From: Stigmatella ashevillena
Lineage (GTDB): Bacteria; Myxococcota; Myxococcia; Myxococcales; Myxococcaceae
Assembly (NCBI RefSeq): GCF_028368975.1
Contig: NZ_JAQNDM010000002.1
Coordinates: forward strand, 8,364,425 to 8,428,424
Direction: 5' to 3'
Length of the DNA: 64,000 nt
Of the stretch, positions 38,451-53,482 are shown piece by piece. The stretch's first letter is position 1, and each line of letters starts with the position of its first letter. The translations under genes were made by a program, and so were the position numbers. The notes under the pieces were generated by a model. It was not told where the DNA came from. It saw nothing but the letters and a program-made list of their open reading frames with translations, and searched no databases.

Positions 38451-39227
38451 ATGGGCATGACACTCCTGGTGTTGCACGGGCCGAGCCTGACCTTCCTCAA
38501 GGAGTTCGAGGGACTCGATGGTGTGTTGCGCCTCCGGGCCGCCAGCCACGGCCTGGCGCTGAAGATCGTCCAGTCCAACCACGAAGGCGTGCTCATCGAC
38601 ACCCTTCAGGCCGAGCGCCGGGGCATTGATGGGGTGGTGGTGAATCCCGCGGGCCTCTTCTCTTCCTATCCGCTCCGGGATGCGCTGGAGACGATGGGCG
38701 TGCCCGTCTTCGAGGTGCACCTGGAGGGGGCCCGCGCGAAGCTGTCCGTGTTGAAAGAGGTGTGCACGGAGCAGTTTTCGGGGAAGGGGGCCGATCCCTA
38801 TCTCCAGGCGATCGACCAATTCATCCAGACGAAGACCTCGGCGGGCGGTGGGAAGGGCAAGGCCGCGGCGGTCTCGAAGATGAAGACGCTGGGCCGGAAG
38901 ATTCCCCGGGAGCCCAAGGCTTCCCCGTCTTCGCCCGCGGGGAAGACGCTGGGCCGGAGCGCGAAGGCCCTCTCCTCGGAGGGCATGCTCTCCCGGAAGT
39001 TGATACGCCAGAAGATCGCCGAGCGGCTCGCGGGTAAGCTGTCCGCCGCGGAGCTGGCCACCTGGGCGCGCATGCAGTGGATGGAAGTGCAGCGGGGCGC
39101 CCCCGCCGAGAGTGGTTATCGAGACATGCTGGAGGACAGCCTGCAGACCCTGACCCTTTCCACGATGCCCGCGAGCCGCCTGACGGACGAGCAACTCGTG
39201 GACCTGATGGCGCAGCTCGAAGGATGA
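38451..39227 (+). CDS. Degenerate type II 3-dehydroquinase (AroQ)-like protein with C-terminal extension
   Basis: 258 residues; AAGGGAGA precedes the ATG. Residues 1-125 keep the AroQ flavodoxin-like frame: LLVLHGPSL, QSNHEGVLIDTLQ, VVNPAGLFSSYPLRDAL and VFEVHLEG. The active-site loop is changed: where enzymes have NGPNLN...GxREP...YG, this protein reads HGPSLTFLKEFEG, so the essential Arg and Tyr are gone. It may therefore be inactive and only bind. Residues 130-258 add a Lys/Pro-rich linker with two MKTLGR/GKTLGR-like copies and a helical tail. The stop overlaps the rsmB start (ATGA). The role is unknown; the context suggests translation or ribosome maturation. Confidence 0.8.
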   Translation: MGMTLLVLHGPSLTFLKEFEGLDGVLRLRAASHGLALKIVQSNHEGVLIDTLQAERRGIDGVVVNPAGLFSSYPLRDALETMGVPVFEVHLEGARAKLSVLKEVCTEQFSGKGADPYLQAIDQFIQTKTSAGGGKGKAAAVSKMKTLGRKIPREPKASPSSPAGKTLGRSAKALSSEGMLSRKLIRQKIAERLAGKLSAAELATWARMQWMEVQRGAPAESGYRDMLEDSLQTLTLSTMPASRLTDEQLVDLMAQLEG

Positions 39228-40540
39228 GCGCCCGGACCCTTGCCATCCAGGTGCTGGCGCGTGTGCGCGCCACCGACGCCTACCTCAACGTCGTCCTCGA
39301 CACGGCCCTGTCCGAAGCGCCCCCGAAGGATGCGCGCGACGCCGCGCTCGCCACGGAGCTGTCCTACGGCACCACCCGTCGGCAGCTCGCGCTCGACTAC
39401 GCCATCACCCGCTTCGCGGACCGGAAGTTGGATGCGATGGAGGACCGCGTTCTCGCCGCCTTGCGAGTCGGGGCCTACCAGCTCTTCCATACCCGGGTGC
39501 CCGCGCGCGCGGCGGTCGCCGAGACGGTGCAGGCCCTCAAGGACCTGGGCGTCGAGCGCGCCGCCGGCTTTGTCAACGCCATCCTGCGCAAGCTGGCCGC
39601 GCTGCCCGCGGCGCCGCTGCCGCCCGAGAGCGATGTGGCCGAGTACCTCTCCATCCGGGAGAGCCACCCGAAGTGGCTGGTGGAGCGGTGGCTGCGCCAG
39701 TTCGGCCGCGAGCGTGCCGAGGCGATGCTGGTGGCCGACAACCAGACGCCGCCGGTGGTGGTGCGCACGAACACCACGAAGGTGACGCGCGAGGCGTTGC
39801 TGGCCCAGTTCCGCGAGGTGGGGTTGGAGGTTCAGCCCACGTCCGTGTCCCCGGTGGGCATTGTCCTGCCCTCCCTGGGGCGGCTGGAGGACGTGTACGG
39901 CTATTCCGAGGGGCTCTGGCAGGTGCAGGATGAGGCGGCCCAGCTCGTGGGCGTGTACTCCGCCATTCCGGAGAACGCGCGCATGCTGGATGTCTGTGCG
40001 GCGCCTGGAGGCAAGGCGTGCCACCAGGCCGAGACGCACGAGGTGGTGGCCATGGATCTCCATGCCAACAAGCTGCCGAAGATCGTCTCGGAGGCGAAGC
40101 GGCTGGGGTTGCTGAGCAGGCTTCGCGCGGTGGCGCACGATGCCACCCGGCCCTATTCCGAAGAGCTGGGAGCGTTCCAGGCGGTGTTGGTGGACGCGCC
40201 GTGCTCCGGGTTGGGCACCCTGCGCCGCCACCCGGAGTTGCGCTACCGGCGCAGCGAGGCGGACCTGGGACGGCTGGCCACGCTCCAGCGCCGCATCTTG
40301 GAGAACTGCCAGGAGGTGGTGCCCCCCGGAGGGCTCCTGGTCTACGCGGTCTGCACCCTGGAGCCGCAGGAGGGACAGGACCAGGTGGACATGTTCCTGC
40401 GCAGCCACCCCGAGTGGACGGCGGAGCCACCGGTGCTCTCGGGCGTGAAGCTCCCCATGAGTCAGGCATGGCTGCGCACGCTGCCCGGCCCGGAAGGGTG
40501 GGACGGCTTCTTCGCCGCCCGCCTGCGCAAGCTGTACTGA
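39224..40540 (+). CDS. rsmB: 16S rRNA (cytosine-967-C5)-methyltransferase RsmB
   Basis: 438 residues from the ATG at 39224. The NusB-like RNA-binding domain covers 1-135 (QVLARVRATDAYLN, ELSYGTTRRQLALDYAI). The methyltransferase domain has the SAM loop LDVCAAPGGKACH, motif IV DAPCSGLGTLRRHPEL and motif VI VYAVCTLEPQEG; the two motif cysteines are the release and attack residues of m5C enzymes. The usual PGGKTTH is PGGKACH here, a mild change. It is the last gene of the fmt operon and runs convergently into the Rieske gene with 1 bp between the stops. Confidence 0.95.
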   Translation: MSARTLAIQVLARVRATDAYLNVVLDTALSEAPPKDARDAALATELSYGTTRRQLALDYAITRFADRKLDAMEDRVLAALRVGAYQLFHTRVPARAAVAETVQALKDLGVERAAGFVNAILRKLAALPAAPLPPESDVAEYLSIRESHPKWLVERWLRQFGRERAEAMLVADNQTPPVVVRTNTTKVTREALLAQFREVGLEVQPTSVSPVGIVLPSLGRLEDVYGYSEGLWQVQDEAAQLVGVYSAIPENARMLDVCAAPGGKACHQAETHEVVAMDLHANKLPKIVSEAKRLGLLSRLRAVAHDATRPYSEELGAFQAVLVDAPCSGLGTLRRHPELRYRRSEADLGRLATLQRRILENCQEVVPPGGLLVYAVCTLEPQEGQDQVDMFLRSHPEWTAEPPVLSGVKLPMSQAWLRTLPGPEGWDGFFAARLRKLY

Positions 40541-40541
40541 G

Positions 40542-41054
40542 CTACAGGGGCCGGTGGATCCACAGCGAGTGGCCCACGCGCGCGGTGCGGAACACCGCGA
40601 GGGGACGGGTGGCGGGACCTTGAAGCACCTGTCCGTCCTCGCCGAAGCGTGAGCCGTGGCACGGGCACTCCAGGAGTGCTTCCTGGGGCACATAGGCCAC
40701 GCTGCAGGCGCCGTGGGTGCAGATGCTCCACACCGCCGTGTAGCAGTCCTGGGCCGTGTGCAGGACCACCACATCCAACAGGGCCTCGGGGATGCGCACC
40801 GCCGAGAAGCCCCCGGGTTCGAGCAGGGCGGGGTGCTCGGACAGCGGGACTTCCACCCAGCCGTCCTCGGGCCTTCCCGGGAGGACACCGCAGCGCGCGT
40901 TGCCGTCCTCTTCCGGTGGAGGGGAGGGCGAGGGCTCGGCTCCTCCGCACCCGGCACAGGCTGCGGCGAGGGCGCAGGTGCCTCGCAGCAGCGTGCCGAG
41001 CGCCGTCCGGCGGCCGATCCGCTGAACAGAAGGAGGAGCCCCCGCCGTGCTCAC
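40542..41054 (-). CDS. Exported Rieske [2Fe-2S] protein
   Basis: 170 residues. The N-terminus IGRRTALGTLLRGTCALAAACAGC has a twin arginine followed by a hydrophobic stretch, a likely Tat signal, with lipobox-like Cys near 33-36. The cluster ligands are C112-x-H114 in CTHGAC and C130-x2-H133 in CPCHGS; C117 and C132 can form the stabilising disulfide of respiratory-type Rieske domains. No oxygenase or cytochrome partner is next to it. Its start overlaps the stop of the surface lipoprotein gene (ATGA), so it is the third gene of the cobalamin-riboswitch operon. An electron-transfer or cobalamin-reducing role outside the cytoplasm is a guess from context. Confidence 0.9.
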   Translation of the reverse strand: MSTAGAPPSVQRIGRRTALGTLLRGTCALAAACAGCGGAEPSPSPPPEEDGNARCGVLPGRPEDGWVEVPLSEHPALLEPGGFSAVRIPEALLDVVVLHTAQDCYTAVWSICTHGACSVAYVPQEALLECPCHGSRFGEDGQVLQGPATRPLAVFRTARVGHSLWIHRPL

Positions 41055-41767
41055 GGAGAGGGCCCCAGCAGGCTCACACCGTTGACGACGGCCACCGCGT
41101 CCAGATCGAACCCTCCGGAAGTGCCGCTGTAGCCGTTGGCGCCACTGTCACGGATGCGCACGAAGCGCGCCCGAGAGAGCCCGAGCGCCGCCAGATCGAA
41201 CCCATCGCCCCCGGCCACGGCGGGGTCCGTGGGGCTGATGCCGTTGTCGGGGTGGGAGAACACGGGCTTGACGCCCGCGCACCCGGGGAAGCCGCCGGCA
41301 CGGTTCGTGGCGTCGCAGGGAAACTCGCTCCACGTCACGCCGTCGTCGCTCACCGCCACCACGCCCGTTTCGGGGAATCGCACGAAGGCATTCTCGAAGA
41401 CGATCAGGTCCACGCCGGGGCCATCCACCACGGCGATGTCGGTGAACTCCAGGACGATGACGCCTTGCCGTCCCAGGCTGAGCACGTCCAGGGAGCCGGC
41501 GCTGCTGCCTTCACCCCGGGGCGGCCCGAGCACGACAGTCGGAAACAGGTCCTGGCCGAAGCCCGCCGACGCCCCAGGCTGAAACGAGACCACGCGGTCC
41601 GCGAAGGGATTGGCAGGGGGGGAGATTTCGGGATCGGTGCCCGCGTCCTCCTGCTCGCCGTTCCCATCCCCGGGCTCCTTGTCTCCCGAGCCACCACAGG
41701 CGGTCAGGCCCAGGAACGTGGCCAGCCCCAGACTCCACATCCATGAGGGAAGCGAGGGTGTTCTCAT
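41051..41767 (-). CDS. Surface lipoprotein of B12-regulated operon
   Basis: 238 residues. The lipobox LTAC (C24) is followed by an acidic flexible linker (GDKEPGDGNGEQEDAGTDPE). The folded part is beta-rich with typical segments VVSFQPGASAGFGQD, VVLGPPRGEGSSAGSLDVL, LGRQGVIVLEFTD and VDLIVFENAF. This matches a widespread cell-surface protein family, often annotated only as such, that I recall near cobalamin transport genes in other bacteria. Two cysteines in the mature part (FPCDATNRAGGFPGC) may bridge. Coupled by 4-nt overlaps to both neighbours. I infer a role in capturing cobalamin or a corrinoid at the surface. Confidence 0.82.
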   Translation of the reverse strand: MRTPSLPSWMWSLGLATFLGLTACGGSGDKEPGDGNGEQEDAGTDPEISPPANPFADRVVSFQPGASAGFGQDLFPTVVLGPPRGEGSSAGSLDVLSLGRQGVIVLEFTDIAVVDGPGVDLIVFENAFVRFPETGVVAVSDDGVTWSEFPCDATNRAGGFPGCAGVKPVFSHPDNGISPTDPAVAGGDGFDLAALGLSRARFVRIRDSGANGYSGTSGGFDLDAVAVVNGVSLLGPSP

Positions 41768-43101
41768 GGCTGGTGGATGCGGACGAGCCGCTCTCCGTTC
41801 TTGTCGGACACGCCCACCAGCAAGTCTCCGCCCAGATGCGTGAGCGACTGGAGCTGGGTGCAGCTGTCGACGAACTTCAGCACGGGGGTGGTGGCCCCGG
41901 GGGTCACGGTCTGTGGCGTGCCGCTGAGGGGCAGCGCGATGCGTGAAACGTCCGTGTAGACCGGAGGCCAGCCCGAATCATCTCCGAGCAGCAGGGCCAC
42001 GCCGTCGCCGAAGGCCGCCACGTTGAGGATGCTGCTGCCGGGGGTGAGCTCGGTGGCGTCCGCGAGGTTGAATGGCACGCCGTTGGTGAGCGCCGGCTGA
42101 TAGAGGGAGGGGGCCGCGGCGCGCAGGCGGTTGGTGAAGACCGTCCCGTCGAAGTAGCCCAGCACGGCCACACCATTTTCCGTCACCGCCGTGTACCCGC
42201 TGGAGGCCTCCCAGGCAGGGTCGAACGTGGCGAGCAACGAGGTGGTGGGCGGATCCGTCTGGGGTTGCAGGGCGTAGATGCCCACCTCGGGCGTGGCGTT
42301 GCCCAGACCCAGGCCATTGATGAGGAAGGCATTGGGGAGCGCGGCGGCGGTGTAGTTGCCGGGCGCGGAGAGGTACTGGAGGCTGGAGGGCGCAGCGGTC
42401 GGGTAGAGGGAGACGTAGCCGGGGAAATTGGCCCCGGACTTGGTGTAGCCGCTGAGCAGCCGCGAGCCATCGTTCACCAGGTAGCCGCCCAGGAAGAACG
42501 TGCCGCCGCGGTCCGAGGGCTCGATGACCGAGAACAGGGACTGGGAGTTGGCCTGGATCGAGGGCCACGTTCCCAGCGAATACACGTTCTGGTCCGCGCC
42601 GCTCAGGCCATAGACGGTGTACAGCGGGCCGGGGCCCACGGCCGTCACCGCGATGATGCCCGCAGGAAGCCCGGCGGATTCCGTGGCGGCGAAGCCGGTT
42701 TGCAGTTGAAGCGTGCCCAGCTTCGGGTCGTGCGCCACCGAGCACGGGCCCGTGCCTCCGTCGGTGTCTGGCCCCGCGTCGGTAGGCCCCGCGTCGGTAG
42801 GCCCCGCGTCGGTAGGCCCCGCGTCGGTAGGCCCCGCGTCGGTGGGCCCCGCGTCGGTGTCTGGCCCCGCGTCATTGCCCGAGCCCGCATCCGGGGGCGC
42901 TCCGCCCGGGTACAGGGGGACACACTTCTCTTCCTGGCAGACATAGGGATTGCGCGGGTCGCTCCGCTCGGGAGTGCCCTGGCAATCAAAGGAATTGATG
43001 CACTCCTCGCCGCAGCCGGTGCTCAGGCTTGCGAGGGCGAGGGTGCCCAGGACAGGCAGCCATCGCGTCCACTTCGTTCCCAGTCTCATCGTGTTCTTCA
43101 T
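41764..43101 (-). CDS. DAGP-linker lipoprotein, probable beta-propeller, first gene of B12 riboswitch operon
   Basis: 445 residues; the ATG at 43101 has GGAG five bases upstream. Signal peptide with lipobox STGC (C30). A Cys-rich short module (CGEECINSFDCQG...CQEEKC) comes next, then a PTDAGPTDAGP linker (about 73-112) made by 15-bp DNA repeats. The remaining 330 residues are rich in Gly, aromatic and beta-type repeats (GPLYTVYGLSGADQNVYSLG; GVAVLGYFDGTVFTNRL; DLLVGVSDKNGERLVRIHQP), suggesting a six- or seven-bladed propeller. BtuG, the Bacteroides surface B12 binder, is also a lipoprotein propeller, which makes the analogy attractive given the riboswitch. No direct similarity is claimed. Confidence 0.82.
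   Translation of the reverse strand: MKNTMRLGTKWTRWLPVLGTLALASLSTGCGEECINSFDCQGTPERSDPRNPYVCQEEKCVPLYPGGAPPDAGSGNDAGPDTDAGPTDAGPTDAGPTDAGPTDAGPTDAGPDTDGGTGPCSVAHDPKLGTLQLQTGFAATESAGLPAGIIAVTAVGPGPLYTVYGLSGADQNVYSLGTWPSIQANSQSLFSVIEPSDRGGTFFLGGYLVNDGSRLLSGYTKSGANFPGYVSLYPTAAPSSLQYLSAPGNYTAAALPNAFLINGLGLGNATPEVGIYALQPQTDPPTTSLLATFDPAWEASSGYTAVTENGVAVLGYFDGTVFTNRLRAAAPSLYQPALTNGVPFNLADATELTPGSSILNVAAFGDGVALLLGDDSGWPPVYTDVSRIALPLSGTPQTVTPGATTPVLKFVDSCTQLQSLTHLGGDLLVGVSDKNGERLVRIHQP
42776..42850 (-). repeat. Five tandem 15-bp units encoding DAGPT repeats
   Basis: GCGTCGGTAGGCCCC occurs four times and GCGTCGGTGGGCCCC once, in exact tandem; a longer variant follows. Read on the minus strand this gives repeated PTDAG. 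Near-identity of the copies indicates recent expansion; linker length probably varies between strains. Confidence 0.92.
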
Positions 43102-43245
43102 GGGTCTCCGCGCTCCTTCGCCCCCTCCGGGCGAATGGCCTTCGAGGCGCGTGCGCGGAGGCGCTCCGGGACGAGCCGGAAGACGCCTCCGTCACCTCCC
43201 CTCGGAGGTTTCGGTGGTAGCCGTGCCGTTGCGCGGCACGGGACC

Positions 43246-43412
43246 TCGGCAGGTCTTCGGACTCACAGGCGCGGAGGGCTCGGAAGAGTCCTCCTTCTAC
43301 TGGCTGTCGCTTCCCAGCCCCGTGAGGGGCCAGTGCTTGCATGGACGGCGGTCGTTCCTGTTCACCGCTGCGGGGCAGTCCCGGAATCACACCGGGTTCC
43401 CTTGAGCACCCA
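43246..43412 (-). promoter_or_regulatory. Cobalamin riboswitch (adenosylcobalamin aptamer)
   Basis: On the minus strand the aptamer reads, in order: GGTGCTCAAGGGAA, CCCGGTGTGATTCCGGGACTG, CCCCGCAGCGGTGA, AAGCACTGG, GCTGGGAAGCGACAGCCAG and GAGTCCGAAGACCTGCC (43262-43248). These are the conserved blocks of the cobalamin riboswitch in the right order and spacing. It starts about 25 nt after a promoter and ends about 145 nt before the first gene. Downstream leader hairpins include CCGTGCC/GGCACGG (43221-43241) and a perfect 7-bp stem at 43117-43135 whose loop is GGAGG, next to the start site. With no U tract, control is probably at translation: cobalamin binding should lower expression. Confidence 0.94.
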
Positions 43413-43443
43413 TGACGTCATGGGCGCGCCGAGGACAGGGCCG

Positions 43444-43472
43444 GGGATAGGCGGCACGCGGGCGTTTGTCAA
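43444..43472 (-). promoter_or_regulatory. Sigma-70 promoter for the B12 riboswitch operon
   Basis: On the minus strand, TTGACA (43472-43467) and TATCCC (43449-43444) are 17 bp apart. The -35 is perfect, the -10 weak. The start would be near 43437, just before the aptamer. Confidence 0.6.
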
Positions 43473-43517: not shown

Positions 43518-44411
43518 CTAGTCGTCGCTGGAGGTGGCCAGCTTGAAGGCGTCGAGCACCGCGGCGGAGGCGCGGTCCAGGTACTTGCCCTTGCGGATCA
43601 GCAGGCCGATGGGGCGCGAGACGGGGCCTTCCGCGAACGGCTTGACCATGAGCGAGTTGGCCTGCACTTCGGCTTGGCAGGTGGACAGCGGCAGGATGGC
43701 CACCCCGAGTCCCATCTCCACCGCGCGCTTGATGGTCTCGACGTTGTCCATCTCCATCACCGGGTTGAGGTCCAGGTTCTTCTCGCGGAACAACCGGTCC
43801 AGCGCCTTGCGCGTGGGGGCCTCCCGGTCAAAGGCGATGAAGGGCACGCCCGACAGGGCCGTGAGGCTCACCTTGGCCTTGCTGGAGAACGGGTGGCTGG
43901 GCGCGCACACCACCGCCAGCTTGTCGTCCCGGAAGGGCAGGATGTCCACGCCCGCGCGCGGCTGGGGGTAGGCGACGATGCCGATCTCCGCCGCCCCGAG
44001 GATGACGTCGTCGTAGACCTGATCATTGCGCCGGTAGTTCAGGCGCATGTTCACCTTGGGGTGCGTCTTGAGCAGCTGCTTCTGCACGCTCTGCAACTCG
44101 TGCAGACCCACCGAGTAGATGGTGGAGACGGTGGTCGTCCCCTGCACCTCGGCGGCCTGCTCGCGGATCTCCTGCTCGACTTCCGCGAAGCGGGCGAGGA
44201 TTTCCTTGCAGCCGCGGAACAGCCGCTCGCCTGCCGGAGTCGGGGTGACCTGGCGCGCGCTGCGCGACAGCAACTTCTGCTCGTAACGGTTCTCCAGCGC
44301 GCGAATCTGCTGGCTGACCGCCGATTGCGTCACGTGATTCAGTTGCGCCGCGCGGGAGAAGGAGCCCGTCTCCACGACGTCACAGAACATCTTCAGGCTT
44401 TCGAGCTGCAT
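43518..44411 (-). CDS. LysR-type transcriptional regulator
   Basis: 297 residues. The N-terminal winged helix-turn-helix is clear (LKMFCDVVETGSFSRAAQLNHVTQSAVSQQIRALE, about 6-41 in parts). A linker helix and a two-lobed effector-binding domain (92-290) follow with ELGIVAYP-like and PFIAFDRE segments. The overall sequence resembles the CysB/Cbl-like branch, but the ligand cannot be told. No target gene is divergent; upstream on the other side is a small membrane protein gene on the same strand. Terminated before the B12 operon. Confidence 0.95.
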   Translation of the reverse strand: MQLESLKMFCDVVETGSFSRAAQLNHVTQSAVSQQIRALENRYEQKLLSRSARQVTPTPAGERLFRGCKEILARFAEVEQEIREQAAEVQGTTTVSTIYSVGLHELQSVQKQLLKTHPKVNMRLNYRRNDQVYDDVILGAAEIGIVAYPQPRAGVDILPFRDDKLAVVCAPSHPFSSKAKVSLTALSGVPFIAFDREAPTRKALDRLFREKNLDLNPVMEMDNVETIKRAVEMGLGVAILPLSTCQAEVQANSLMVKPFAEGPVSRPIGLLIRKGKYLDRASAAVLDAFKLATSSDD

Positions 44412-50749: not shown

Positions 50750-53482
50750 ATGGCTGGCCCCCCAACGGATGGAAGAACTGGAAAGTCCTCCGTCAAGCAC
50801 CGGCGGCCCGCCTCGGATGAGAGTTCCAAGGGCTCGAAGGTGCTGGAGCAGGGGGCCCGCATTGACCGCTATGTCCTCCTCAAGGTCGTGGGGCAGGGGG
50901 GCATGGGCACGGTCTATGCCGCGTATGATCCGGAGCTGGACCGCAAGGTAGCCCTCAAGCTGCTGCGCCCCGGCAAGGGGGATGCGGAGGACTCGGAGGG
51001 CCGCGCCCGGCTGCTGCGGGAGGCGCAGGCCATGGCCCGCATCTCTCACCCCAACGTCATCACCGTGCACGACGTGGGGACCTTTGGCTCCCAGGTGTTC
51101 ATCACCTTGGAGTTCATCCAGGGGCAGACCTTGCGCGAGTGGTTGCGCAAGGACCGGCACCCCTGGCAGCAGATCCTCCAGCGCTTCCTGGAGGCGGGCC
51201 AGGGGCTGGTGGCCGCCCATCAAGCGGGTCTGGTGCACCGGGACTTCAAGCCGGCCAACGTGCTCATCTCCGACAGCGGACGGGTCTACGTCACCGACTT
51301 CGGTCTGGCGCGGCTGGCAGAGGCCGCGGGGCAGGAGGAGGCCGCCTTCGATGCGGGCGGGGTCTTCGAGGAGCAGATGAGCGCGGCGCTCTCCTCGCCC
51401 CTGACGTCCGAGGGGGTCATCGTGGGCACGCCCCAGTACATGCCGCCCGAGCAATACCTGGGCAATGCCGGGGACGCGCGCCTGGACCAGTTCAGCTTCT
51501 GTGCCTCGCTGTACTGGGCGCTCTACGGCAAGCGTCCCTTCGAGCCGCAGCAGATGGCCGCGATGGCGGCCGAGGTCAGTCAGAGCCTTCAGGCGCAGAG
51601 CCCCCAGGAGATCCGGCGCAGGCTGGGACATGGCACCATCGTCCAGGATCCGCCTCGCGACACGCGGGTGCCTTCCTGGGTCCGGCGCGCGGTGCTGCGC
51701 GGGTTGTCGCTGGCCCCAGAGGACCGTTTTCCGTCCATGCAGGCCCTGCTGACGGCGCTGTCCCAGCAGCAGCGGCGAGTGCGCCGGCGCAAGGTGATCG
51801 CCGCAGTGGGGGCGGTCGCGGTGGCCGGGGCGGGGGTGGGCTTGTACTTCCAGCACCGCAGCCAGCTGTGCACGGGGGCCGAGTCGCTCATGGCCTCCGT
51901 CTGGGGACCGGCCCCGCGGCAGAAGCTCGAGGCCGCCTTCTCCGCCACGGGCAAGCCCTTCGCACCGGAGAGTGCCCGCCGGGTGGTGCAGGAACTGGAT
52001 GGGTATGCGCAGGGCTGGGCGCGCATGCACACCGAGGCCTGCGTGGCGACCCGGATCCAGGGGATGCAGACGGAGGCCCTGCTGTCCCTGCGCATGGTGT
52101 GTCTGGATCGGCGCCGCAGGGACCTGCGGGCGCTGGTGGGCTTGCTGACGGAGGCGGACGGCAAGGTGGTGGAGCGCTCGGTGGATGCCGTCGCCGCGCT
52201 CCCGTCGCTGAAGGCGTGCCAGGACATCGAGTCGTTGACCGAGCAGTCCCCGCTGCCCGAGGATCCCGCCCGCCGCGCCACCATCGAGCGGCTTGGCGAG
52301 CAGCTCTCCCAGATCAAGGCCCTCCATGACGCGGGCCGCTACCAGGCCGCGCTGACGCTGGCCCGGACGATCGAGCCCGAGGTGGTCGCCACCACCTACC
52401 TGCCGCTCCAGGCGGAGCTGCGCTACCACCTGGGCTGGTTGCTCCAGCAGAGCGGGGAGGCGGAGGAAGGTCTGCGCGAGTTGGAGCGGGCCTTCGACGA
52501 TGCGGAGTCGAGCCGGTCCGACAGGACGCGGCTGGAGGTCCTCATCAAGCTCATCTTCACGCTCGCCACCAACGGTCATCCGGAGCAGGCCCAGCGCTGG
52601 GGCGAGGTGGCGGTCGCGGTCCTCAACCGGCTCGGGGGCGAGCCCTCGCTGGCGGGCGATCTGATGGGCAACCTGGGCAGCGTGGCCTTGATGCAGGGGC
52701 GCTACCAGGAGGCCACGGGCTATTTCGAGAAGGCGCGCGCGCTGCAGCTCGACCCCCTGGGCAGGGAGGACCCGAAGCAGGCCAAGGTGAGCTATGGGCT
52801 GGGGCTGGCAGCCCTGCGCCAGGGGGAGCATGCCCGCGCCATCCAGATGCTCGGCGAGGCGCTTCAGCAGACCCAGTCGGCCAAGGGGGCGCAGCACCCA
52901 GAGATGGGCAGCCGCCACGTCATGCTCGCCACCGCCTACCGGGAGAGCGGAGACCCGGTTCAGGCGCTGGCCCATGCCGAGTCCGCCCTGAAGCTGCGCA
53001 AGGCGGCCCTGGGGGCAAACCACCCCGCCGTGGCCGATGCGCTCGACGAGATGGGCGAGTGCCTCCTTCTGATGAAGCGCTATGAGGAGGCGATGGAGGC
53101 CTTTCGCAAGGCCGTGGACATCAAGGGCGAGAAGCTGGGGATGGACCACCCGGACCTGTCCTACTCCTATGATGGGATGGGCAAGGCGCTGCTGGCGTGG
53201 GGCCGGGCCGAGGAGGCCATCGCCTACCTGAAGCAGGCGCTCGCGTACGAGAACACCGAGCCCGAAGCGCTCGCGGAGACGGGCTTTCGCCTCGCCCAGG
53301 CGCTCTGGGAGACGGGAAAGGCCCCCCAGGGTGCCCGTGAAGAGGCGATCCGGGCCCGTGAAGGCTACGCGAAGCTGGAGAAGCCCCAGCAGGTGGCGGA
53401 GATCACCGCCTGGCTCAAGGCGCGGGAGGCCCCGCCGAGCCCCGCCCATTCCGTGCGTCCCCCCCGTCGCCAACGGCGCTGA
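50750..53482 (+). CDS. Ser/Thr protein kinase with transmembrane helix and TPR sensor
   Basis: 910 residues. The kinase domain spans about 44-340: GQGGMGTVYAAYD loop, ALKLLRPG with the ATP lysine, catalytic HRDFKPANVLI, DFGLAR and an APE variant MPPEQ in GTPQYMPPEQY. All catalytic residues are present (RD kinase). One membrane helix lies at about 347-367 (VIAAVGAVAVAGAGVGLYF). The outside part carries a Cys-containing domain (370-500) and about eight TPR repeats (510-890; kinesin light chain-like pattern). The layout is the common myxobacterial receptor kinase that binds proteins or peptides through TPRs. Confidence 0.94.
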   Translation: MAGPPTDGRTGKSSVKHRRPASDESSKGSKVLEQGARIDRYVLLKVVGQGGMGTVYAAYDPELDRKVALKLLRPGKGDAEDSEGRARLLREAQAMARISHPNVITVHDVGTFGSQVFITLEFIQGQTLREWLRKDRHPWQQILQRFLEAGQGLVAAHQAGLVHRDFKPANVLISDSGRVYVTDFGLARLAEAAGQEEAAFDAGGVFEEQMSAALSSPLTSEGVIVGTPQYMPPEQYLGNAGDARLDQFSFCASLYWALYGKRPFEPQQMAAMAAEVSQSLQAQSPQEIRRRLGHGTIVQDPPRDTRVPSWVRRAVLRGLSLAPEDRFPSMQALLTALSQQQRRVRRRKVIAAVGAVAVAGAGVGLYFQHRSQLCTGAESLMASVWGPAPRQKLEAAFSATGKPFAPESARRVVQELDGYAQGWARMHTEACVATRIQGMQTEALLSLRMVCLDRRRRDLRALVGLLTEADGKVVERSVDAVAALPSLKACQDIESLTEQSPLPEDPARRATIERLGEQLSQIKALHDAGRYQAALTLARTIEPEVVATTYLPLQAELRYHLGWLLQQSGEAEEGLRELERAFDDAESSRSDRTRLEVLIKLIFTLATNGHPEQAQRWGEVAVAVLNRLGGEPSLAGDLMGNLGSVALMQGRYQEATGYFEKARALQLDPLGREDPKQAKVSYGLGLAALRQGEHARAIQMLGEALQQTQSAKGAQHPEMGSRHVMLATAYRESGDPVQALAHAESALKLRKAALGANHPAVADALDEMGECLLLMKRYEEAMEAFRKAVDIKGEKLGMDHPDLSYSYDGMGKALLAWGRAEEAIAYLKQALAYENTEPEALAETGFRLAQALWETGKAPQGAREEAIRAREGYAKLEKPQQVAEITAWLKAREAPPSPAHSVRPPRRQRR

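Follow-up and report, generated by a model that had tools for sequence, protein, structure and literature searches.

A B12-riboswitch operon with a predicted BtuH-like lipoprotein in Stigmatella ashevillena, a likely surface module for cobamide capture

Capture of vitamin B12 at the cell surface by BtuG and BtuH lipoproteins is known from gut Bacteroides, as described in the accessible sections of two articles (PMC8941943, PMC10404256). According to those sections, BtuG1 is a surface lipoprotein paired with BtuB1 (PMC10404256) and joins a propeller and a BtuH domain in one chain, whereas the BtuH domain of BtuH1 has no extra N-terminal domain in front of it (PMC8941943). The available portions of two further articles present BtuJ/DUF4465 jelly-roll proteins as B12-binding lipoproteins (PMC12751083, PMC13398666), occurring also in Myxococcota (PMC13398666). 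Here we describe an operon on a 64,000-nucleotide stretch of the myxobacterium Stigmatella ashevillena (contig NZ_JAQNDM010000002.1, positions 8,364,425 to 8,428,424; hereafter the window), in which a cobalamin riboswitch precedes genes for two lipoproteins, G1 and G2, and a Rieske protein, G3. We consider it likely that this operon is an accessory module for cobamide capture at the cell surface, repressed by B12, in a myxobacterium that scavenges the vitamin; it would feed a BtuB encoded elsewhere and follow a strategy like that of BtuG and BtuH. Its features are the following.

43231..43448, minus strand: cobalamin riboswitch aptamer RF00174, full length (cmscan 85.5 bits, gathering cut-off 31.5)
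43102..43230, minus strand: leader from the aptamer to the G1 start codon, putative expression platform (no terminator-like site; fold)
41764..43101, minus strand: G1, lipoprotein with a predicted beta-propeller, first gene of the operon (open reading frame of 445 aa, lipobox Cys30)
42751..42891, minus strand: stalk of DAGP/TDAGP repeats in G1, residues 71-117 (from the translation)
41051..41767, minus strand: G2, lipoprotein with a predicted BtuH-like jelly-roll (discoidin-like) domain, proposed cobamide binder (open reading frame of 238 aa, lipobox Cys24)
40542..41054, minus strand: G3, Rieske [2Fe-2S] protein, N-terminus of twin-arginine type, Cys36 possibly part of a lipobox (170 aa, PF00355 E 3.2e-11)
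40656..40721, minus strand: Rieske cluster motif CTHGAC...CPCHG with Cys112, His114, Cys117, Cys130, Cys132 and His133 (from the translation)

The architecture of the operon was supported by covariance and family searches. The RF00174 match (43448..43231, minus strand; E 1.1e-19) spans model positions 1-189 of 189 without being cut off and is one of four such riboswitches in the genome, bearing out the full cobalamin aptamer proposed in a preliminary description made from the sequence alone. The three overlapping reading frames given there, a DAGP lipoprotein, a second lipoprotein and a Rieske protein, were likewise recovered, with overlaps of 4 nt at both the G1/G2 and G2/Rieske junctions and all genes on the minus strand; their third-codon-position GC of 0.84-0.87 is as high as in other window genes. 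Lipoboxes and export-type N-termini of the three proteins were judged by eye. In agreement with the same description, sequence families name none of the trio as a B12 gene. No terminator-like site was detected between the aptamer and G1, the single match of the scan falling inside G2, so that translational or Rho-dependent control appears more likely; aptamer and leader together fold with z = -2.66. The proposal that the operon has its own promoter was not confirmed, as a scan with a sigma-70-type consensus found 0 sites with 0.1 expected, a result that neither proves nor excludes a promoter.

To relate this locus to others, each part of the operon was searched for in 58 genomes of its family, the Myxococcaceae. 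After five weaker matches were dropped, 40 strong G2 places remained in 36 genomes; 21 of the 58 gave no match to G2, and in one further genome the match was weak. A B12 riboswitch on the same strand lies within 3 kb upstream of G2 (at 1.3-1.8 kb) at 35 of the 40 places, compared to 0.015 expected from the density of 121 RF00174 riboswitches in 492 Mb, and G1 is directly upstream of G2 at all 40. Because this layout recurs in relatives, the arrangement is not due to chance. At three of the five places lacking a riboswitch (genomes G012, G004 and G056), the contig stops a short way upstream of G1. The Rieske gene directly follows G2 at 24 of the 40 places. All three genes are also present in a record of Myxococcus xanthus strain AM003 (L086). 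A wider scan of 84,980 species genomes yielded 74 loci (from the best 80 of 115 relatives, some contigs overlapping the earlier set), mostly labelled as myxobacteria or Deltaproteobacteria with a few Planctomycetaceae, Sumerlaeota and others. An Rfam search covered 39 of these loci (L095, L073 and 37 of the 42 loci L105-L146); at 20 of them a B12 riboswitch lies upstream of G2 and on its strand. Across 193 Myxococcota genomes, G2 was present in 96, of which 72 belong to the same family and 24 come from elsewhere; none was found in plasmid records.

The fold predicted for G2 points to cobamide binding. An AF2 model built on an alignment of 63 sequences reached a pLDDT of 92.8, and a Foldseek comparison with 350,542 PDB chains placed 8blw_B (BtuG1), 7biz_B and 7biz_A (BtuH2) in the first three ranks, with muskelin tied at rank 4. 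VIA-align gave Z 13.9 for 7biz (2.6 Å over 147 residues) and Z 12.5 for 8blw, followed by PAPP-A at Z 10.2 and CBM32 modules at about Z 9. The aligned part of 7biz (residues 316-592) lies in the C-terminal domain reported to bind B12 in the accessible text of PMC8941943, and that of 8blw_B (391-660) in a C-terminal extension which the accessible text of PMC10404256 describes as homologous to BtuH2. The B12 contacts of BtuH2 given in the former text are Gln333, Asn399, Phe401, His476, Tyr510, Trp511 and Trp577; in the FENxF motif of G2 the N-x-F is spaced like Asn399/Phe401, which is a lead only. We call G2 BtuH-like rather than BtuH, since the resemblance lies in its modelled fold and in its btuB and riboswitch context.

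The same fold could instead belong to an ordinary discoidin/CBM32-like adhesive domain in a module that binds a carbohydrate or another organism's surface and is merely regulated by B12. Folds of this class are widespread in carbohydrate- and protein-binding modules, and a distant sequence relative of G2, the putative adhesin LIC_13355 of Leptospira, is reported in the available part of PMC11891782 to bind laminin and plasminogen. We nevertheless judge this alternative improbable: each of the three leading Foldseek matches is a chain that contains a B12-binding domain, VIA-align sets 7biz and 8blw clear of CBM32, and the association of G2 with B12 riboswitches and btuB-like genes extends over distant lineages. 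The LIC_13355 model, NF033170, was the sole NCBIfam model matched by G2 and its relatives (60 of 63 at E 0.01, best E 2.5e-15), with the window G2 at 31.3 and 31.9 bits, far under the curated cut-off of 120. As a separate observation, LIC_13355 may merit examination as a cobamide binder. A Pfam scan of the window G2 gave no match, and a search of PDB sequences with the single sequence gave nothing credible. Membership of G2 in DUF4465, considered from the B12 literature, was rejected, with no match at E 1 and none for any of the 63 members at E 0.5; BtuJ was absent among the G2 fold matches listed, which is not an exclusion. A fusion of G2 to a propeller was sought in five long G2 reading frames (L112, L121, L126, L131 and L140) and none was seen, the extensions looking by eye like out-of-frame upstream sequence.

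The gene neighbourhood in relatives connects the module with B12 transport. Gene maps were drawn for 28 G2-bearing stretches of the family, 17 of which carry a receptor gene of the btuB cluster, as do 24 of the 74 stretches of the wider scan (two of them with the receptor on the opposite strand). In several genera the order, with variation, is riboswitch, receptor, a propeller-like lipoprotein (cluster c9), btuF and/or btuC, riboswitch, G1, G2 and Rieske. At L061 (the same place as L108) riboswitch, G1, G2, receptor, c9 and btuF form one run, and the receptor gene also stands directly after G2 at L134, L140 and L143. In S. ashevillena itself the btuB-, btuF- and btuC-like genes form a separate operon, L007, behind a B12 riboswitch of its own. 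For the receptors at L007, L108 and L143 the best NCBIfam match is the B12 receptor model TIGR01779, far below its cut-off, and the L007 permease and binding protein have BtuC as best and BtuF as second match, below cut-off as well; since all these scores are below cut-off, the names btuB, btuF and btuC rest on best matches and context. Taken with the recurring riboswitch and the predicted BtuH-like fold of G2, this neighbourhood lends good support to the earlier proposal of a B12-responsive envelope system for cobalamin capture.

The neighbourhood also bears on the suggestion, made in the preliminary description, that the operon stands in for a B12 enzyme without itself requiring B12. B12 riboswitches elsewhere control B12-independent isozymes, and a Rieske protein could in principle belong to an enzyme. 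By eye, however, all three proteins have export-type N-termini, family scans of the operon proteins show no such enzyme, and in relatives G1 and G2 adjoin receptor and ABC-transporter genes. We therefore regard an enzyme substitute as very improbable.

A need for cobamide uptake is suggested by the genome as a whole (10.95 Mb, two contigs, completeness 100). A search for CobS found none, with the control found in 10 of 14 genomes, CobJ gave only a sub-cut-off match of 32 bits, and nine B12-binding domains are encoded. Together with the genes at L007, these results indicate that S. ashevillena is probably a cobamide scavenger.

G1 was characterized in the same way as G2. Its residues 117-445 were modelled by AF2 with a pLDDT of 95.1 and 23 strands, and can be predicted with confidence to form a beta-propeller. 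Pfam gave no match to G1, NCBIfam one insignificant match, and PDB sequence searches with the single sequence or a profile nothing credible; the structure search was dominated by generic propellers. Because BtuG1 combines a propeller and a BtuH domain in a single protein, G1 and G2 look, on their predicted folds, like a split BtuG1. Judging from its family, the riboswitch would permit expression of the operon when cobamide is scarce and shut it when cobamide is plentiful. G2 would then bind cobamides at the cell surface through its BtuH-like jelly-roll, as fold and context suggest, and the G1 propeller would work with it from a flexible DAGP stalk, the two domains fused in BtuG1 being made here as two co-regulated proteins. 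The cobamide would pass to a TonB-dependent BtuB and on to BtuF/BtuC, encoded at L007 in this genome and beside the module in many relatives. The Rieske protein would be a third member that the module can do without, and may have an accessory redox role.

Several findings weigh against capture by such a module. First, the resemblance of G2 to BtuH is limited. The three leading Foldseek matches have modest scores (E 1.5e-4 to 1.1e-3, TM 0.51, rmsd 9.8-11.9 Å over the alignment), the G2 fold falls in the large discoidin/CBM32-like class with other VIA-align entries at Z 8-10, and Pfam F5_F8_type_C is touched by 10 of the 63 homologues (best E 0.045). A profile of the 63 sequences did not reach BtuH among PDB sequences, with 7biz unlisted up to E 10, and the BtuH domain spans about 100 residues more than G2. 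Second, BtuG is absent among the 50 G1 fold matches listed, all of them other proteins, and G1 occurs almost exclusively within the family, with profile matches at only 5 of the 42 loci L105-L146; the genes adjoining G2 at these loci vary, some being plainly unrelated. Third, the riboswitch is not universal: none was detected at 19 of the 39 Rfam-searched loci, and genomes G028 and G037 have three tRNA genes in place of a riboswitch before G1, with no aptamer in a more permissive Rfam search. Lastly, no btuB was found in the window, and the scavenger argument draws on two B12-synthesis genes, CobS and CobJ. On balance, a B12-repressed capture module remains our preferred explanation.

At the two tRNA-bearing places (L047:5883-6165 and L048:6315-6596, both minus strand), the three tRNA genes lie between btuC and G1 at the riboswitch position of relatives; because they occupy this place, both genomes seem to have lost the switch or to have replaced it.

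The third protein raises a further possibility. The CTHxxC/CPCHGS ligands and both extra cysteines are kept in 22 of 23 homologue matches with E below 1e-20 (L101 being the exception), from which the sequences suggest that the Rieske cluster is probably functional. Against NCBIfam Rieske models the protein scored 52.2 bits (cut-off 250) and 43.8 bits (cut-off 97.4), and no cytochrome b was found among the other two operon genes and four flanking genes scanned. With G1 and G2 holding a cobamide, the Rieske protein might pass it an electron, taking Co(III) to Co(II), or aid removal of its upper ligand, either ahead of the hand-over to BtuB or in the course of it. The preliminary description had named reduction of cobalamin as well, which the findings neither support nor exclude. 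In addition to the kept ligands, this would fit the exported look of its N-terminus, the position of its gene directly behind G2 at more than half of the family places, and its presence behind a different first gene at L113. Against it, the searches found no Rieske gene at 16 of the 40 modules, the operon holds no redox partner or electron-donor gene, and the single literature search aimed at a Rieske-B12 redox role showed no precedent. We thus regard capture combined with redox as unlikely. Somewhat more doubtful is a full relay, in which the propeller and BtuH-like lipoproteins bind cobamide and the exported Rieske protein reduces the cobalt or strips the upper ligand ahead of BtuB, coupling uptake to extracytoplasmic redox.

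Other genes around these modules were also recorded. The c9 lipoprotein (L007:8457-10337 and L050:9214-10830, both minus strand) sits directly behind the btuB-like gene, has STIG1-like cysteine repeats and is propeller-like by eye; a c9 profile search of PDB sequences gave no match. The true equivalent of BtuG in myxobacteria may be this protein, which is a better genomic candidate than G1 for the lid of BtuB. An FHA/GAF/cyclase gene (c4) and a gene that is kinase-like by eye (c2) come after the module in relatives. Both were set aside as members because of their cytoplasmic appearance; in addition, the mapped part of the window contains no c4 gene, and the c2 cluster is broad, with its window member at 50750. 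G1-like propeller genes without a downstream G2 occur at 9 of 49 G1 places, including G000:C2:6193459-6194589 in S. ashevillena itself and G057:C1:8038251-8039465, the latter with its own B12 riboswitch 198 bases upstream. At L095, L105, L106, L110, L113, L118 and L121, G1 is replaced, between riboswitch and G2, by a gene for an apparent lipoprotein with a repeated Trp/Cys-rich domain of ~110 residues (motifs WxDNWGG, AIAQN, WSRFDW, YYCQTAY and GCGGFSWT). This domain had no Pfam match in four members scanned and no PDB match; it occurs in 17 of 193 genomes, with at least one copy adjoining a B12 riboswitch or G2 in 16 of the 17, and is a candidate for a new B12-binding domain. In the window, the operon is flanked by genes for an RsmB-type 16S rRNA methyltransferase (39077..40540, plus strand) and a LysR regulator (43518..44411, minus strand).

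Two further B12 riboswitches of the genome have other contexts. One (L005:6844-14506, minus strand) precedes genes assigned by Pfam to a class III aminotransferase, an aldehyde dehydrogenase and a CoA transferase subunit, to which inspection by eye adds a thiolase and another aminotransferase; most of the same clusters stand behind a riboswitch at L058, and the set is possibly a B12-independent or B12-linked catabolic route. The third riboswitch (L006:12050-12879, minus strand) precedes a short FAD_binding_4 fragment flanked by two nearly identical 233-aa genes that are transposase-like by eye, for which reason the controlled gene looks broken.

If the operon does serve capture, soil predators outside the phylum of Bacteroides would use a B12 strategy of the same type, divided between two proteins and accompanied by a Rieske protein. 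This would account for the cobamide supply, possibly from prey, of myxobacteria that have large genomes and seemingly no B12 synthesis. The analysis also names several testable unannotated proteins and gives a fold-based reason to re-examine a lipoprotein family found in half of the Myxococcota genomes surveyed.

We found no such module described in myxobacteria in the articles searched, which mostly exclude subscription journals and preprints. The earlier word "undescribed" is apt insofar as no sequence family names the genes, and is not apt for the predicted fold of G2, which is that of Bacteroides BtuH and the BtuG1 H-domain as presented in the accessible parts of PMC8941943 and PMC10404256. 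The Rieske protein shares with the high-potential proteins of bc1/b6f complexes the CTHxxC/CPCHGS motif including both extra cysteines, and differs from them in its distance from the NCBIfam cut-offs, its B12-riboswitch operon and the absence of a cytochrome b from that operon. Like the BtuJ/DUF4465 lipoproteins, as far as the available text of PMC12751083 and PMC13398666 describes them, G2 is an exported jelly-roll protein of B12 loci; unlike them, it has no DUF4465 match and, by eye, no TPAY motif. BtuH1 and BtuH2 (BT_1488 and BT_1956; BtuH2 is 7biz; PMC8941943, accessible part) include its best VIA-align match and are accessory in B12 transport loci, and G2 shares with BtuH1 the absence of the extra N-terminal domain. 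No sequence-level match to either was found, and PKD domains belong to BtuH2. B. thetaiotaomicron BtuG1 differs from the myxobacterial pair, which consists of two separate proteins with a smaller G2 domain, in an operon that in this genome lacks btuB and with an extra Rieske protein, in a different phylum; the likeness of G1 is to propellers in general, a specific match to the propeller part being absent among the matches listed. What the module has in common with BtuG1 (BT_1490; PDB 8blw; PMC10404256, in the sections available) is a riboswitch-controlled B12 locus, a lipoprotein nature, the combination of a propeller with a BtuH-like domain, and a tie to BtuB.

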